DNA of 64,000 nucleotides from Paenacidovorax caeni (GTDB lineage Bacteria; Pseudomonadota; Gammaproteobacteria; Burkholderiales; Burkholderiaceae_C). Under the pieces are notes generated by a model, which saw only the letters and a program-made list of their open reading frames with translations, had not been told where the DNA came from and ran no database searches. A program made the position numbers and the translations under genes. Below are positions 42,433 through 49,254 of this stretch, piece after piece. The stretch is from assembly GCF_001298675.1 (NCBI RefSeq), contig NZ_CYIG01000003.1, forward strand, positions 1 through 64,000, written 5' to 3'. Numbering within the stretch: the stretch's first letter is position 1; every line of letters begins with the position of its first letter.

Positions 42433-44340
42433 TCACGCAGCCGGCTGGCCTGGTGGCATGTGCAGCGTCACGGTCACGACCGTGCCGCTCGCGCCGGAAT
42501 CCACACGGAACATCGCGCCCATGCGCTCGGCCCGCGCCGCCATGCTGCGCATACCCACCGACATGCCCGCGCGCTGCACGGCGGCCACGTCGAAGCCCCG
42601 GCCGTCATCCTCGACGCGCACCGCAAACACCCCGGGCTGCGGCAATGTGCACTCCACGCACACGCGCCGCGCCTGGCTGTGCTTGATGACGTTGGACAAC
42701 GCTTCCTCCACCAGCCGCGTCAGCAGCAGGCACTGGAGTGCGCTCGGGCAACCGCCCTCCTCCACCGTGCCCCGCCACTGCGCAGCAATACGCCATTCGC
42801 TGGCCACGCCCATCTCATCGAGCAGGCGCGTGACCCGGTGGCGCAGCGGCGCAAGCCACTGCAGCGGCGTTGCAGGCACGGTAGCGCCCGCGCTCGATCC
42901 GTGGTCGATCACCTGGCGCAAGTCGTCGCGCAGCGTCTTGAGCAGCGACAGCACACGCTCGCCGGGCAACTGCCCGCCCGCCTGCTCCAGCAGTGCCATG
43001 CCGCGCACCAGGCTGCCACCCAGGCCATCGTGCAGGTCGTGCGCGATCTGCATGCGCTCCTGCAGCTTGGCGTTGTCCAGCGCCTGCGCATGCTCGCGCG
43101 CCACAGCCTGGGCCAGTTCAGTGCGTGCCTCGGCCACGCGTGCCTCCAGCTCGCGCTGAAAACGCTCGGCGCTGCGCATCTGCTGCGCTAGTTGGCCGCT
43201 CAGCAGCAACATGACCAGGACGATGGTGGCAATGCCGCTGAGCGCCGCCCAGTTGCGCGCCACGTGCCACACGTCCGGCACCAGGCCCAGCGTGAACAGT
43301 GCCACCACCACCAGCACCAGCCAGCACAGCGCCAGCAGCCGCTGCGCCACGCCGCGCCCAGGCCGCCAGGCATGCCACTGGAACTGCAGCCCGTTGAGCA
43401 GAAACACCCCGAGTGCGCCGCGCCAAATGGTGGCAAACCAGGCACTCTCAGCGCCCTGCGGCGCCCACCACGCCGCCGCCGCACCCAAGGCCGCCAGCAG
43501 CCACAGCGCACGCTCGGCCCACGGCAGGCGCTGCTCGCCAAAGCGGAAAGTGAACAGGCAGGCACACAGCACGTAGCCCACCAGCGCCACCAGGCTGGCG
43601 CGCGCGCGGTCCAGCGAATCGGTGAATGGCCAGGGCGTGTCCGCCAGGTAGGTGCTCAGGTAAGCCAGCCAGCACAGCGACATGAGGGCGAACCAGCCAT
43701 AGGCACGCTCCTGCCGCCGCAGGCCCCACACCAGCAGAAACAGCACCGCCGCCATGCCGGCGAGCACGGCGTTGACGAAGTACACCGTGCGCTGGCGCCA
43801 CTGGGCCTGCTCCTGCGCGCGCGCCACGTCCGCCGCATCGCCCAGGCGCAGTGTGCCCACCAGGCCGGACGACAGCGCGGCCACGCCCACCACGCGCACC
43901 CACACGGTGTTGGTGCCCTCGCGCAGGGAGGACGCCGGCAGCAACCACCAGCGCGGCACGTTCCAACTGCGCGAGAGCGGCTCGGCGAGCGAGGCGTCGC
44001 GCCACAGCAGGTCATCGTTGATGAACACCTCGCCCGCGCTGCCGATGCCGTCGATACCCAGCCCAAGTTCGGCGGCCCTGGCGCTGCACTCCGCACCCGC
44101 ACGCACCCAGTCAATGCGGTACCAGGCCGTACCGCTGTAGCCGGGCCAGCGGCGCTCCCACATGTCTGGCAGCGTGACCGGCTCCCATCCCTCCACCGGC
44201 CGTGCGCCATCGGCCGAGCGTGCGACCTGCGCCGACACGATGCGCGGGATGCACTCCTGGCCCTCGTCCGCCCATGCCGCAGGCCAGGCCAGCAGCCACA
44301 GCGCCAGCCACGCCACCAGCCGCCGCATCAGCCCAGCCAC
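42433..44340 (-). CDS. Sensor histidine kinase, NarL-partner (HisKA_3) type
   Basis: The 635-residue kinase has a signal/first helix (LVAWLALWLLAWPAAWADEG), a periplasmic beta-sandwich with a galactose-binding-like pattern (WYRIDWVRAG..LGLGIDGIG SAGEVFINDDLLW), and about seven membrane helices, a 7TMR-DISM-like layout. The HisKA_3 region is RMQIAHDLHDGLGGSLVRGM with the phospho-His at about residue 437 (LHD). The HATPase part shows LVEEALSNVIKHSQARRVCV and VRVEDDGRGFDVAA. It overlaps the response regulator gene by 13 bases. Signal unknown; likely an envelope or carbohydrate/peptide cue. Confidence 0.92.
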   Translation of the reverse strand: MAGLMRRLVAWLALWLLAWPAAWADEGQECIPRIVSAQVARSADGARPVEGWEPVTLPDMWERRWPGYSGTAWYRIDWVRAGAECSARAAELGLGIDGIGSAGEVFINDDLLWRDASLAEPLSRSWNVPRWWLLPASSLREGTNTVWVRVVGVAALSSGLVGTLRLGDAADVARAQEQAQWRQRTVYFVNAVLAGMAAVLFLLVWGLRRQERAYGWFALMSLCWLAYLSTYLADTPWPFTDSLDRARASLVALVGYVLCACLFTFRFGEQRLPWAERALWLLAALGAAAAWWAPQGAESAWFATIWRGALGVFLLNGLQFQWHAWRPGRGVAQRLLALCWLVLVVVALFTLGLVPDVWHVARNWAALSGIATIVLVMLLLSGQLAQQMRSAERFQRELEARVAEARTELAQAVAREHAQALDNAKLQERMQIAHDLHDGLGGSLVRGMALLEQAGGQLPGERVLSLLKTLRDDLRQVIDHGSSAGATVPATPLQWLAPLRHRVTRLLDEMGVASEWRIAAQWRGTVEEGGCPSALQCLLLTRLVEEALSNVIKHSQARRVCVECTLPQPGVFAVRVEDDGRGFDVAAVQRAGMSVGMRSMAARAERMGAMFRVDSGASGTVVTVTLHMPPGQPAA

Positions 44341-45011
44341 CCGCGTGTGCGCGCCGCGCTCACCGCGCCCGTGCGCGACGACACAGCCAGCTTGCGGTAG
44401 ATGCGCTTGACATGGCTCTCGACCGTGTAACGTGAGAGGAAAAGTTGCTCGGCGATCTCGCGGTTCGAGAGGCCATCGGCCACCAGCCGCAGGATCTCAC
44501 CCTCGCGCTCGCTCAGCGCCTCGGCCGGGGCAGCGCCCACGGCGGCGGGCGCGGGTACGGGCAACAGCTCCAGAATGCGCCGCGCAATGAACGGATCGAT
44601 CGGCGCACCGCCGCGCAGCACGCTGCGGATGGAGAGCTGCACTTCCACGTCGTCGCGCTCCTTGAGGACGTAGCCGGTGGCACCGGCGCGCAGCGCGCCC
44701 AGAATCGCATCCTCCGAACTCCAAGCAGACACCACGAGGATGCCCAGGCCAGGGTCGTCGGCACGCAACTGCACGATCAGATCGCACCCATTGCCGTCGG
44801 GCAGCTGCAAATCCACCAGAGCCAACGCCACGGGCTGCTGCGCCAGGCAGGCGCGCGCCTCGGCCAGTGTCGCTGCGAACAGCAGCGCATCCGGCGCGTA
44901 GCCCAGCGCCAGCAGCACGCCGCGTAAACGCTGCTGCAGTAGCGGCTCGTCTTCCACCACCAGTACGGGTGCGGGCAGCACGGATTCGGGGGCGGTAATG
45001 AAAGCAGTCAT
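44328..45011 (-). CDS. Response regulator, NarL/LuxR family
   Basis: The 227-residue regulator has a receiver domain with acidic residues Glu20/Asp21 (VVEDEP), phospho-acceptor Asp67 (LVDLQLPDGNG), Ser95 and Lys117 (GYVLKERDD), and a LuxR-type helix-turn-helix (LSEREGEILRLVADGLSNRE, IAEQLFLSRYTVESHVKRIY). It is first in its operon with the kinase gene. The upstream region contains a 21-bp inverted repeat that could be its binding site. Confidence 0.95.
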   Translation of the reverse strand: MTAFITAPESVLPAPVLVVEDEPLLQQRLRGVLLALGYAPDALLFAATLAEARACLAQQPVALALVDLQLPDGNGCDLIVQLRADDPGLGILVVSAWSSEDAILGALRAGATGYVLKERDDVEVQLSIRSVLRGGAPIDPFIARRILELLPVPAPAAVGAAPAEALSEREGEILRLVADGLSNREIAEQLFLSRYTVESHVKRIYRKLAVSSRTGAVSAARTRGWLG

Positions 45012-45079
45012 GGCATGGCAGCGTCGACAACGGGGAGTGCAAGGCAGACGCCATCCTAGGCGACGCCGGCCCCGCCGCC

Positions 45080-45183
45080 TATCCCTGAAATTGGGTAATT
45101 CGCACCCGTCTGCCGCGCCGCGGTGGCACCAGCACAGGCACGCTCTGGCGCCACCGCCCTCAAATTACCCAATTTCAGGGATA
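45080..45183. promoter_or_regulatory. Perfect 21-bp inverted repeat between the two-component genes and the peptidase genes
   Basis: The left arm 45080-45100 (starting TATCCCTGAAATTGGG and ending TAATT) is the exact reverse complement of the right arm 45163-45183 (AATTACCC then AATTTCAGGGATA). The centres are 83 bases apart, about eight helical turns. A smaller inverted pair, GCGGTGGC/GCCACCGC, lies between. The placement between divergent units suggests paired operators for the response regulator, perhaps with looping; alternatively it is a transcript hairpin. Which gene it serves is inference. Confidence 0.7.
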
Positions 45184-45242
45184 CCGCAACACGTCACAAA
45201 TCCTTACGATGCCTCCTCAGACGCACCTGCTTCAACAGTGTT

Positions 45243-45292
45243 TTCGGCCTCCAGCGCATACCAGAAAAGCGCTAGCAGCTATAAAAAAAGTA
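45243..45292. repeat. AGCGCT-core dispersed palindrome, copy 11
   Basis: CCTCCAGCGCATACCAGAAA followed by AGCGCTAGCAGCTATAAAAA lies just before the S33 hydrolase gene; the TATAAA it carries could serve as a -10 box. Confidence 0.8.
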
Positions 45293-45325
45293 GTACCCAT
45301 GCACCACGCTACCGAAGAACGCACC

Positions 45326-47134
45326 ATGCCGCTCCCCACCAGCCAGCGCACTGCCCGGCTGGCTGCCGCCGTCGCCCTGGCCGCCGGCCTGGCCGCCTGT
45401 GGCGGCGGCAACAGCAGCAGCCCGCCCGACCCGCTGCAGCCGTACCGCACGCAGGCTGTGCAGTGGACTGAGTGCGACACCAGCATCCTCGGCCCGCGCA
45501 GCCCCAAACTCGAAACGCTGTGGGCACTGGCGGGCGAGCGGCTGCGCTGTGCCATGGTGCGCGCGCCTCTGGATTGGTCTAACCCCGCGCGCGGCGATGT
45601 CACCCTGGCGGTCATGCGCCTGGCCGCTGGCACCCCGTCCAAGCGGCGCGGCGCCCTGCTGTTTAACCCGGGCGGCCCGGGCGAGGATGGACTGGGCTAT
45701 GCCCTCACACTGCTGAACGCTTTCGCCCTGGGCAACCCTGACAGCCCGCTAGGCGCGCAACAACTGCGCCTGCTCGCCGAGTACGACATGGTGGGCTTCT
45801 CGCCGCGCGGCATGGGCGCCAGCACGCAGCTGCACTGCGCCACCAACGAGCTGAAGCGCTTCGTGGACTACAGCCCGGCAGGCTGGGACGCCCCTGACAA
45901 CCTCGCCAACACCCACTACAACGGCCGCAAGACAGCCGAGGCCTGCCAGAAGAACCCCCTAACCCCTTACATCAACACCGACGCCACGGCGCGCGACATG
46001 GACTTGCTGCGTGGCCTGCTCGGCGACGACAAGCTCAATTACGTAGGCTACTCCTATGGCACCTGGCTGGGCGCCTGGTACGCCAGCCTGTTCCCCGAGA
46101 AGGTGGGGCGCATGGTGCTCGACAGTGCGCTGGATTTCGACACCACGATCGAAAAATCGCTGCTGCACTCGCAACCACCCGCACGCCAGCGCCTGTTCGA
46201 CGAAGTGATGGCACCTTACGCCGTGCGGCACCCGGACGTCTTCCGCCTGGGCGCCACCGAGGCCGAGGTGCGCGCCATCATGCCGCGCCTGCACCCACGC
46301 GTGCAGGCCGTGCTGGCTGAGTTCCTGAGCGGCCTGGGCTACCGACGCGTGGACGCCATGGCGTACCTCGGCCACATCGCGGCAGCGCAAGGGTTGGACA
46401 CGGTGCTGCAAAGCGTGCCTGATGCGGCGGATGACAGCGCGGTGCGCCACGCGCTGGCGCAGCAGGTGTTCCACCCCACTAACCCCTCGCAGGACACCCA
46501 GGTACGCGCCGTTGCATGGAGGCTCTACGAAAAGTACCGCAGCAACTGGCTGGTGCCACAGCCCCAAAACATCGAGGCCAACGGAGCGGGCGGCATCGCC
46601 ATCCGCTGCAACGACACGCCCGCCATCACCGACCTGGCGCAATGGACCACCACGGTGCGCGGCCTGGCGCAGCAGGCCCCCATGTACTTCGGCGGCCTGA
46701 TGGTGCTGAACGCCTGTGCCTTCTGGGGTGGCCCCTCGGTCAGCAAGCCCAGCCCGGCTGCCATGCGGCAGCTCCCGGTGCTGTTCGTGCAGACGCAGTA
46801 CGACGCAGCCACCAACACCGACGGTGCCAACGCCTTCTTCGCCCAGTTGCCCGGAGCCCGCCGCGTGTACGTCACGCGCGACTTCCAGCATGGCGTGTAC
46901 CCCTACGACGACAGCTGCGTCGATCCGTTGGTGACGGCCTATCTGCTCGGCGAAACGCCCGCGCAGCGCGAAACCGTGTGCCCAGGCAAACCACTGGAGG
47001 GGGAAGGCGAGGCCACCGCGCAGAAGGCACAGCCAGCGGACGGCACCCCGCCGACATACACCGACCCGGAAAAGGCACGTGCGCTGATCGATGAGTTCAA
47101 GCGCAGCCTGGTGCCACCCAGCCTGCGGCCCTGA
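45326..47134 (+). CDS. Alpha/beta-hydrolase lipoprotein, tripeptidyl-aminopeptidase-like (S33)
   Basis: The 602-residue protein has a lipoprotein signal (ARLAAAVALAAGLAACGGGN, lipid Cys in LAAC). It resembles SlpD/SlpE-type secreted aminopeptidases: RGALLFNPGGPGEDG (oxyanion region), nucleophile elbow LNYVGYSYGTWLGAWYASLF with Ser243, then the TAP-like C-terminal region PVLFVQTQYDAATNTDGANA and a late His in DFQHGVYPYDDSCVDPLVTA. So it probably trims peptides outside the cytoplasm. The ATG at 45326 gives a clean signal peptide; an ATG 27 bases upstream is possible. It is 56 bases before a clostripain-like gene. Confidence 0.88.
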   Translation: MPLPTSQRTARLAAAVALAAGLAACGGGNSSSPPDPLQPYRTQAVQWTECDTSILGPRSPKLETLWALAGERLRCAMVRAPLDWSNPARGDVTLAVMRLAAGTPSKRRGALLFNPGGPGEDGLGYALTLLNAFALGNPDSPLGAQQLRLLAEYDMVGFSPRGMGASTQLHCATNELKRFVDYSPAGWDAPDNLANTHYNGRKTAEACQKNPLTPYINTDATARDMDLLRGLLGDDKLNYVGYSYGTWLGAWYASLFPEKVGRMVLDSALDFDTTIEKSLLHSQPPARQRLFDEVMAPYAVRHPDVFRLGATEAEVRAIMPRLHPRVQAVLAEFLSGLGYRRVDAMAYLGHIAAAQGLDTVLQSVPDAADDSAVRHALAQQVFHPTNPSQDTQVRAVAWRLYEKYRSNWLVPQPQNIEANGAGGIAIRCNDTPAITDLAQWTTTVRGLAQQAPMYFGGLMVLNACAFWGGPSVSKPSPAAMRQLPVLFVQTQYDAATNTDGANAFFAQLPGARRVYVTRDFQHGVYPYDDSCVDPLVTAYLLGETPAQRETVCPGKPLEGEGEATAQKAQPADGTPPTYTDPEKARALIDEFKRSLVPPSLRP

Positions 47135-47190
47135 CCCACTGCGCCCCGTTCCTTCACGCTTCCATCCACCCCACCACTGCGAGGACTTTC

Positions 47191-49254
47191 ATGCCCCCCA
47201 TTTCACGCCGCCACATGCTCGGCACCGCAGCCGCCCTGCTCGCCGGAGGGCTTGCCGCCTGCGGCGGCAGCGGCGACGATGCCACCCCGCCCCGCACCAC
47301 GCTGCTCGTCTACCTGCTGGGCTCCAACCTGGAGAGCATGGGCAACGCAGGCACCACCAACCTGCTGGAAATGCTCGCCGCCCAAGGCTCGGCGTACACC
47401 CGCGTCATCATTACCACGGGGGGCGCCGACAAGCGCGACCCCGACGGCCTGGTGCCGAGCTGGAAGACGGTCAAGCGTTTCGAGCTGGCCAACGGCGCGT
47501 TGAAGGAGCTGGCAGACCTGGGCGCACGTGACATGGATTCCAGCGACACGCTGCAGGACTTCCTGATCTGGGGCGTGCGCACCTACCCCGCCGAACGCAC
47601 CATGCTGGCTCTGTGGGACCACGGCAGCGGCTACTACGGCTATGGCGGCGACGAAAACTATCCGGGCGAAGGCAAGATGATGTCGCTGCCCGCCATGTCA
47701 GCAGCCCTGCAAGGCTTCAAGGCCGCCACGGGCATTACGCTCGACTACATCGGCTTCGACGCCTGCCTGATGGCCACGCTGGAAGTGGCCAAAGTGGTCC
47801 AGCCCTATGCCCGCTACCTGGGCGCATCGCAGGAGCTGGAGCCGGGCTCGGGCTGGGACTGGAAGAGCGTGATCGAAACCGCCGCGCGCCAGCCCGTTCC
47901 GAGCCTGCCGGAGTTCGGCCAGATCGTGGCCACGGCCTTCCACGACAAGCAACTGCGCGAGCGCCCCGAGGGCAGCCCAATTCCACCGCTGTCGGACTAC
48001 GTGACATTCAGCATCATTGACCTCGCGCGCCTCGGGCCGCTGCTGGAGCGGCTGGAGCAGTGGGCAAGCGCCGTGCACGCTTACTACGACAGCGGCGCCA
48101 AGCGCGCCAATGCCAACGGCGGCGTGTTCTGGCCACCCACGTTCGCCGCGGCGCTGCCCCGCACCAAGGCCATGCCCGGCACCCTGCTCGCTGAGGGCGA
48201 CGCCGCCATCGAGCGCTGGAAGCAGGTCGCCATGGCGCGCGTGCGCACCACCACCTTTGGCTACGAGCCGGACGCCAAGGACGCCCTTGACCTGGTGGAC
48301 CTGCGCCAGTTCGCCGCCCTGCTCAGTGCCGATGGCATTGCCACCGGCCCCCAGGCGGCACTGAACCAGGCCTTGCAGGACGCCATCGTTTTCAACATCA
48401 CTGGCCCCCAGGCACGCAACGCCAGCGGCCTGAGCATCTACTTCCCCTTGCGCACGCGCAGCGCGCGCCAGCGCAACGTGTACCAGGCACTGGCCATGCC
48501 CAGCGGGTACATGGGCCTGCTTGAGCGCCACACGCGCCAGGCCGAGCAAGCTCCCTCGGCCATCTACATCGCGCCGCTGCAAGTCCGGGGCGACACCATC
48601 TTCGGCGACATCACTTCCCTGTATGGCGTGCAGCGTGCCGATCTGCTGCAGGTACAGCCGGCCGGCGCCGGGGTGGTCAAGATCACCGGCAGCACACCCA
48701 TCGCCGCAGCCGAGATCGTCGAAGGCTACGGCCAGGTGCTCTACGACACGCAGCAATGGCTGCAGCTCGGCGGCCAACCCCTGCTGCTCTATACCCTGTC
48801 CATCCAGATCAGCGAAGGCGGCAGCCTCAACGCGGCCCTGTACGGCGCACCGGTACGCCTGAAAAGCGCCCGCACCGCTGAAACGCGCATCGTGCTGCTG
48901 TTGCTGAACTACAAGTGGGATCCGGCAACCATGCGCATGGCCGGCGAAATCATCGGCGCACGGGACATCGACTTCTCCGACCCCAGCGACCCGACCGACC
49001 GCGTCGACCGCGACATCTACGCGGGCGACACCGTGGAGCCCCTTCACATCCTCTACGACGTGGCGAAGCAGGCCCCCGTGGCAAGCCCGGGCGGCGGCAT
49101 CGCCTTCGAATTCGGCTCGCCCGTGACAGTGGTGCTCGACTCGGCCCTGCGCCCCACGCCGCTGGCCGCAGGCAACCACACGCTGATGCTGTCAGTGACC
49201 GACCTGGCGGGCGCCGAGGCCCTCTCACAGCCGCTGGCATTCACCAAGCGCTAA
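47191..49254 (+). CDS. Clostripain-family (C11) cysteine peptidase, predicted lipoprotein
   Basis: The 687-residue protein starts with a Tat-like and lipoprotein signal (SRRHMLGTAAALLAGGLAAC). The C11 catalytic pair is visible as His144 in LALWDHGSGYYGYGG and Cys192 in YIGFDACLMATLEVAKVVQP, with YLGASQELEPGSGWDWKSVI after it. C11 peptidases cleave after basic residues. The remaining 350 residues include beta-rich regions of unknown role. With the preceding exopeptidase it forms a pair able to cut and then trim peptides. A terminator follows at 49264. Confidence 0.9.
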   Translation: MPPISRRHMLGTAAALLAGGLAACGGSGDDATPPRTTLLVYLLGSNLESMGNAGTTNLLEMLAAQGSAYTRVIITTGGADKRDPDGLVPSWKTVKRFELANGALKELADLGARDMDSSDTLQDFLIWGVRTYPAERTMLALWDHGSGYYGYGGDENYPGEGKMMSLPAMSAALQGFKAATGITLDYIGFDACLMATLEVAKVVQPYARYLGASQELEPGSGWDWKSVIETAARQPVPSLPEFGQIVATAFHDKQLRERPEGSPIPPLSDYVTFSIIDLARLGPLLERLEQWASAVHAYYDSGAKRANANGGVFWPPTFAAALPRTKAMPGTLLAEGDAAIERWKQVAMARVRTTTFGYEPDAKDALDLVDLRQFAALLSADGIATGPQAALNQALQDAIVFNITGPQARNASGLSIYFPLRTRSARQRNVYQALAMPSGYMGLLERHTRQAEQAPSAIYIAPLQVRGDTIFGDITSLYGVQRADLLQVQPAGAGVVKITGSTPIAAAEIVEGYGQVLYDTQQWLQLGGQPLLLYTLSIQISEGGSLNAALYGAPVRLKSARTAETRIVLLLLNYKWDPATMRMAGEIIGARDIDFSDPSDPTDRVDRDIYAGDTVEPLHILYDVAKQAPVASPGGGIAFEFGSPVTVVLDSALRPTPLAAGNHTLMLSVTDLAGAEALSQPLAFTKR

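Follow-up and report, generated by a model that had tools for sequence, protein, structure and literature searches.

A conserved operator shared by a two-component operon and a facing lipoprotein peptidase operon in Paenacidovorax caeni points to a candidate regulator of surface proteins

Results and Discussion

We analyzed the first 64,000 nucleotides of contig NZ_CYIG01000003.1 of Paenacidovorax caeni (assembly GCF_001298675.1; this whole stretch is called the window here), where a sensor histidine kinase and a NarL-type response regulator face a pair of lipoprotein peptidases, one S33-type and one of the C11 (clostripain) family. With a probability of roughly 0.7, we propose that this two-component system, via one conserved operator, activates itself together with lineage-specific surface or extracellular proteins, which here would be the two peptidases. 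The membrane kinase, carrying a GH2-like outside domain, would phosphorylate its NarL-type partner, and a dimer of the regulator would then bind a 23-bp operator just upstream of promoters whose -10 box lies 21 nt further on, activating them. As the window has two outward-pointing operators, one such event would switch on both the regulator-kinase operon, by autoregulation, and the S33-C11 operon. In relatives, the same operator would front lipoprotein peptidases, IPTL-CTERM (exosortase H) proteins, RTX/cadherin proteins, and type V adhesins. The sequences themselves show the operator and its direction, the spacing to the -10 box, conservation ahead of the regulator gene, and co-occurrence with the kinase, as detailed below. 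All four genes that a preliminary description of this region had named were found at the positions and with the domains it gave (Table 1).

Table 1. Genes, operators and predicted -10 boxes of the two facing operons (window positions)
Feature	Positions	Strand	Remarks
Sensor histidine kinase	42433..44328	-	GH2-like outside domain (residues 24-165), 7TMR-DISM membrane part, HisKA_3/HATPase core
NarL-type response regulator (receiver + GerE)	44328..45011	-	Response_reg 63.4 bits, GerE 71.5 bits
Predicted -10 box TAGGAT, regulator-kinase operon	45053..45058	-	21 nt after left operator
Left operator	45080..45102	-	Faces regulator-kinase operon; one mismatch to consensus
Right operator	45161..45183	+	Faces peptidase operon; exact consensus
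Predicted -10 box TACGAT, peptidase operon	45205..45210	+	21 nt after right operator
S33-type (TAP-like) lipoprotein peptidase	45299..47134	+	Abhydrolase_1 64.7 bits, TAP-like 53.5 bits
C11 (clostripain family) lipoprotein, twin-arginine-like signal	47191..49254	+	Peptidase_C11 88.9 bits

Two outward-facing operators with a fixed promoter layout

Between the divergent operons, a 21-bp sequence is repeated perfectly in inverted orientation (45080-45100 and 45163-45183, arms 62 nt apart), and the window contains its 16-nt core nowhere else, even with three mismatches allowed. Read along transcription, the 23-bp site consensus is CAAATTACCYRATTTCAGGGATA; its core, AAATT-N4-AATTT, is twofold symmetric, as would be expected for a dimeric NarL-type regulator. 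Among 46 unique sites with at most three mismatches, a TAnnnT box stands at offset 21 in 27, compared with 0 to 2 at each of the remaining offsets between 8 and 26, and the columns between site and box are low in information, with no conserved -35 box seen. Both units of the window have this promoter type, since in each a TAnnnT box lies 21 nt past the operator arm. In a congener (G150; G labels denote individual genomes, L labels individual loci, and G000 is the window's own genome), both repeat arms are retained, while the spacer between them is altered in sequence and length.

The same operators might instead serve a repressor, so that the peptidase operon and the regulator's own operon would be held down until a signal arrives, and sequence gives no measure of the sign of control. 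However, a site set 21 nt ahead of the -10 box, in promoters with no conserved -35 box, is the layout one would expect of an activator-dependent promoter, as in class II activation, which makes repression unlikely in our view. We infer that this regulator is the protein that binds the operator, and that it does so as an activator.

The site is conserved before the regulator gene and tracks the kinase

Relatives of the locus were collected with an alignment of 16 kinases, scanned against a single genome of each species, which gave at least 80 loci among the matches listed, from Comamonadaceae, Achromobacter and other Alcaligenaceae, Acinetobacter, Pseudomonas, and others. Neighboring genes were called with a gene caller trained on the window, which loses genes in low-GC genomes, and regulators were then sought by tblastn; a regulator gene was identified in 71 of the 80 listed loci, and these were used for the upstream counts. 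Within 200 nt upstream of the regulator, a site with at most five mismatches is present in 50 of the 71 loci, compared with 3 of 1,420 dinucleotide shuffles, and at three mismatches or fewer the counts are 27 of 71 and 0 of 1,420. Ten of the 50 sites point toward the divergent gene. The regulator-upstream site recurs in Burkholderiales, Acinetobacter, and Pseudomonas. The consensus was derived from the window's family, whose members are thus no independent test of conservation, and the Acinetobacter loci, which played no part in deriving it, contribute 17 of their 25 loci to the 50 (hand tally).

The link to the kinase was assessed in the window's family, with 399 genomes for the 18-mer search, kinase identity, and exosortase H, and 329 for C11 relatives. 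Seventeen genomes are kinase-bearing, that is, their best kinase is at least 47% identical to that of the window. An 18-mer searched at up to two mismatches gave 44 matches in 25 genomes (9 for the reversed control) and was present in 9 of the 17 kinase-bearing genomes versus 16 of the 382 others. A longer pattern was applied to 36 chosen genomes, namely, 18 kinase-bearing ones (the 17 plus G301, with a 37% identical kinase, picked partly for its already-known site) and 18 controls with exosortase H and no such kinase, drawn from the 33 exosortase-H genomes outside the kinase-bearing 18. This pattern matched 54 times, against once for the reversed control, and was found in 15 of the 18 kinase-bearing genomes and 1 of the 18 controls. 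Of 266 genomes in a class-wide scan, 6 had the site; two belong to the window's family, and the other four may be chance matches.

These distributions also bear on whether the site belongs to another, unlinked regulator that controls both operons. A few sites do front regulator genes of other kinds, and the sole control genome with a site, G148, which is of the same genus as G301, has no close kinase. Against this stand the retention of the site before this very regulator gene and its concentration in kinase-bearing genomes, and we regard an unlinked regulator as highly improbable.

Some loci depart from the usual arrangement. In G136 (L103, 5572-10748), the regulator and kinase genes are both tandemly doubled behind one operator pair. 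In G289 (L104) and G147 (L107), a site lies directly upstream of the kinase gene, with no adjoining regulator gene found.

Genes assigned to the sites include regulator, surface-protein, and secreted-protein genes

The targets of the 54 sites were assigned by hand: 13 sites precede a regulator or kinase gene, 25 precede surface or secreted proteins, 2 precede ABC_sub_bind genes, and 14 precede other or unnamed genes. For 20 of the 25 surface or secreted targets, the assignment is backed by a family model or a window homolog; these are S33 and C11 lipoproteins, IPTL-CTERM or choice-of-anchor U proteins (including an M36 metallopeptidase of 1,533 residues), and two proteins (L167 and L171) that combine RTX repeats with cadherin-like domains. 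The other five were assigned by eye from a lipobox or a sorting-signal-like tail (L168, L174, L175, and two in L119). Of the 14 remaining sites, five lead to a second NarL-type regulator (L178), a regulator of the GntR type (L104), a sigma-70 family factor (L129), an insertion-sequence gene (L133), and a frame of 159 residues that matched nothing (L121). Several site copies at contig ends are near-identical (L176, L177, and C4, C7, C12, and C35 of G190), which suggests a repeated gene; the one target read, in L176, has an IPTL-CTERM tail.

Outside the window's family, type V adhesins appear behind the site. In Acinetobacter populi it precedes a YadA-like trimeric adhesin (L236, 4274, minus strand), and in Pseudomonas cuatrocienegasensis two sites (L262, 7548 and 1675, both minus strand) precede a two-partner secretion (TPS)-type adhesin and a second, partial frame that begins alike. 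In Oxalicibacterium flavum (L216), an autotransporter gene adjoins the kinase, and the best site there has six mismatches. Beside the kinase of Acinetobacter guillouiae (L226, 10971-13436), we also observe an 821-residue secreted protein whose tail is GlyGly-CTERM-like by eye.

The window's own genome has four sites: those of the two window operons, one before an ABC_sub_bind gene on contig 45, where an exact third copy of a 15-mer of the site is found, and, on contig 7, a copy with two mismatches that precedes another S33-type gene. In both the contig 45 locus (L028, 3521-4860) and its counterpart in G150 (L125, 5962-7303), an exact site lies about 280 nt before the ABC_sub_bind gene, the product of which has a Tat-like start; the same gene run holds a GNAT-like gene and an alanine racemase-like gene, both named by eye. 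The ABC_sub_bind protein is possibly another exported target.

The peptidase pair is a probable lineage-specific target

Both peptidases have the features of their families. The S33-type protein combines an alpha/beta hydrolase domain with a TAP-like C-terminal part, and it shows the motifs LAAC, GYSYG, QYDAAT, and FQHG, which we take to be the lipobox and catalytic residues; its nearest solved chains are protease 8e5w, Carboxylesterase A, and Hip1. After a gap of 56 nt follows the C11 protein, with a twin-arginine-like start (RRHML), the motif LAAC, and a Peptidase_C11 domain whose DHG and DAC motifs (DHGSG and DACLM) stand at residues 143 and 190 and presumably play the roles assigned to them in this family. 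Its matches to solved C11 proteins are weak (best E, 5.3e-5).

Full-length C11 orthologs occur in 3 of the 329 family genomes (G000, G150, and G294), and in all three the S33-C11 pair faces the regulator-kinase pair. The complete set of four genes is thus also present in the congener G150 (L030, with one inserted gene), where the C11 protein is 91% identical to that of the window and an IPTL-CTERM/Lcl_C gene heads the peptidase operon, as well as in a second genus (G294; L106). The preliminary description had treated the two-component genes and the peptidases as one regulatory unit, and this view is supported: each unit has its operator arm and an equally spaced -10 box, the set recurs in two further genomes, and, far from being widespread without the two-component genes, the C11 orthologs all adjoin them. 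At a threshold of 1e-15, any C11 relative is found in only 8 of the 329 genomes, 6 of which carry a kinase at least 47% identical; a relative in G146 (L033) has a site upstream. The window's genome also encodes a second C11 lipoprotein (L029; contig 20, 41536-42402), 41% identical over its N-terminal half, with no site and no S33 or two-component genes adjoining.

The same description had further supposed that the peptidases digest extracellular peptides and that the kinase senses the substrate or product to tune them. Such a loop would accord with the intact family motifs and lipoboxes of both peptidases, and with the pair facing the two-component genes in three genomes. It is nevertheless very unlikely in our view: most kinase-bearing genomes lack a C11 relative and the site serves other proteins there, which gives no support to the peptidase pair being the point of the system, and the sensor domain of the kinase has the fold of a GH2 sugar-binding domain, as described next.

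The sensor kinase and its regulator

The kinase gene ends at 42433 on the minus strand and starts at either a GTG at 44340 or an ATG at 44328; the regulator gene precedes it in the operon. The 7TMR-DISM_7TM domain of the kinase scores 30.4 bits (cut-off, 29) and is followed by a kinase core, as in 7TMR-DISM histidine kinases, with HATPase_c at 39.7 bits (cut-off, 26.4) and HisKA_3 at 20.1 bits, under its cut-off of 24. A Pfam scan gave no match to the outside part, including to the Pfam 7TMR-DISM extracellular domain. In a structure search with the whole kinase, the best 50 matches were kinase cores only, the closest being that of DesK, and the outside domain was therefore modeled separately. 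In fold, the model of residues 24 to 165 (mean pLDDT, 87.7) matches the sugar-binding domain found in GH2 glycosidases, with a best Foldseek E of 1.3e-5 and a VIA-align Z of 13.6 (124 residues at 2.9 Å). Although this likeness alone is no proof that the modeled sensor binds sugar, a GH2 sugar-binding-type fold lends peptide sensing no support, and we think of the signal as a presumptive glycan or envelope ligand.

The regulator combines a receiver with a LuxR-type GerE helix-turn-helix domain, as NarL/FixJ-type regulators do, and the Pfam scan gave no sigma-54 domain match that would place it with PrsR among the sigma-54-interacting, Fis-type regulators. Among the best 25 of 84 NCBIfam families listed, MadR was the best match for the regulator and MctS for the kinase core. 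Both likenesses fall far under the curated cut-offs, with the best of the named regulators (MadR, MctR, NarL, and others) at 125.2 bits versus 300 and the kinase at 54 bits against MctS, for which the cut-off is 700; the MadR/MadS and MctR/MctS systems are the nearest named ones in this comparison.

Exosortase H and IPTL-CTERM proteins

Exosortase H (TIGR04177) is above its cut-off in 51 of the 399 family genomes, among them all 17 with a kinase at least 47% identical (raw counts that ignore kinship). By genus, each of the 10 with the kinase is among the 22, out of 141, in which exosortase H occurs (kinship again ignored). Exosortase H also occurs in 34 genomes without such a kinase, and five genomes with a kinase 41 to 45% identical (G128, G152, G236, G320, and G155) are absent from the exosortase-H list. 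IPTL-CTERM matches were found in 12 of 12 genomes scanned, with 1 to 36 in each, including three genomes without the kinase. Because these matches are so common, also where there is no kinase, most IPTL-CTERM proteins are not under the site. In G150, two sites precede IPTL genes among 28 matches, and for 8 of the 11 matches in the window's genome that were inspected directly, no site is listed.

A dedicated regulator of IPTL-CTERM proteins or exosortase H was considered and found too strong a claim, as few or no IPTL genes per genome carry the site; the type V adhesin targets outside the window's family also counter it. The idea that the C11 protein processes IPTL-CTERM proteins was likewise dropped, with C11 orthologs in 3 of 329 genomes versus IPTL matches in every genome scanned.

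Weighing the proposal

Several observations weigh against a self-activating system that controls surface proteins through this operator. All of its support is comparative, with binding and activation predicted. The site is missing, at up to five mismatches, from 21 of the 71 regulator upstream regions and, at the pattern threshold, from 3 of the 18 kinase-bearing genomes (G359, G328, and G015); that set includes G301, whose site was known beforehand, and the count excluding it is 14 of 17. Several genomes showed no regulator gene next to the kinase, and at L104 and L107 to L111 tblastn found no regulator above 150 bits. The 14 sites before other or unnamed genes include nine without a nameable target, several of them at contig ends. 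Finally, the window's genome has 11 IPTL-CTERM matches, yet none of its four sites precedes an IPTL gene.

A broader reading, to which we would give even odds, is that this is an undescribed regulator of a surface programme common to Burkholderiales and Acinetobacter. Through one conserved operator, a kinase with a sugar-binding-type sensor would switch on adhesins and extracellular enzymes irrespective of how they are exported (RTX, type V, exosortase-H-sorted, or lipoprotein). The targets would be exchanged between lineages, with the operator, the promoter layout, and autoregulation remaining constant. Under the proposed control, common environmental bacteria would run their adhesins, sorted proteins, and secreted peptidases from a single switch. 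The 23-bp operator and its fixed promoter layout would make the regulon of this two-component family predictable in any genome, and the operator region would be a ready reporter for finding the kinase signal.

Comparison with known systems

In Bordetella, BvgAS likewise pairs a NarL-type regulator with control of its own genes and of several kinds of surface adhesin. In contrast to the window system, BvgS is a hybrid kinase of another architecture, and the BvgA binding sequence is different.

The closest precedent is PrsK/PrsR with sigma-54 in PEP-CTERM/EpsH sorting (PMC1569441, PMC9850573). It too consists of a membrane kinase and a response regulator with a DNA motif before genes of C-terminally sorted surface proteins, a link likewise drawn from matching phylogenetic profiles. 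As described there, PrsR is an NtrC-like sigma-54 activator, whereas the window regulator is NarL-type with a -10-type promoter. The window system also differs in that its operator fronts its own operon, in that lipoprotein peptidases and adhesins exported by other routes are among its putative targets, and in that few IPTL-CTERM genes per genome have its site.

A search of the open-access literature, with most subscription journals outside its reach, gave nothing on this system or on 7TMR-DISM kinases with NarL-type regulators, nothing relevant on exosortase H (XrtH), and no regulator of IPTL-CTERM proteins. IPTL-CTERM itself appears there in one paper, on an S-layer protein (PMC8671808).

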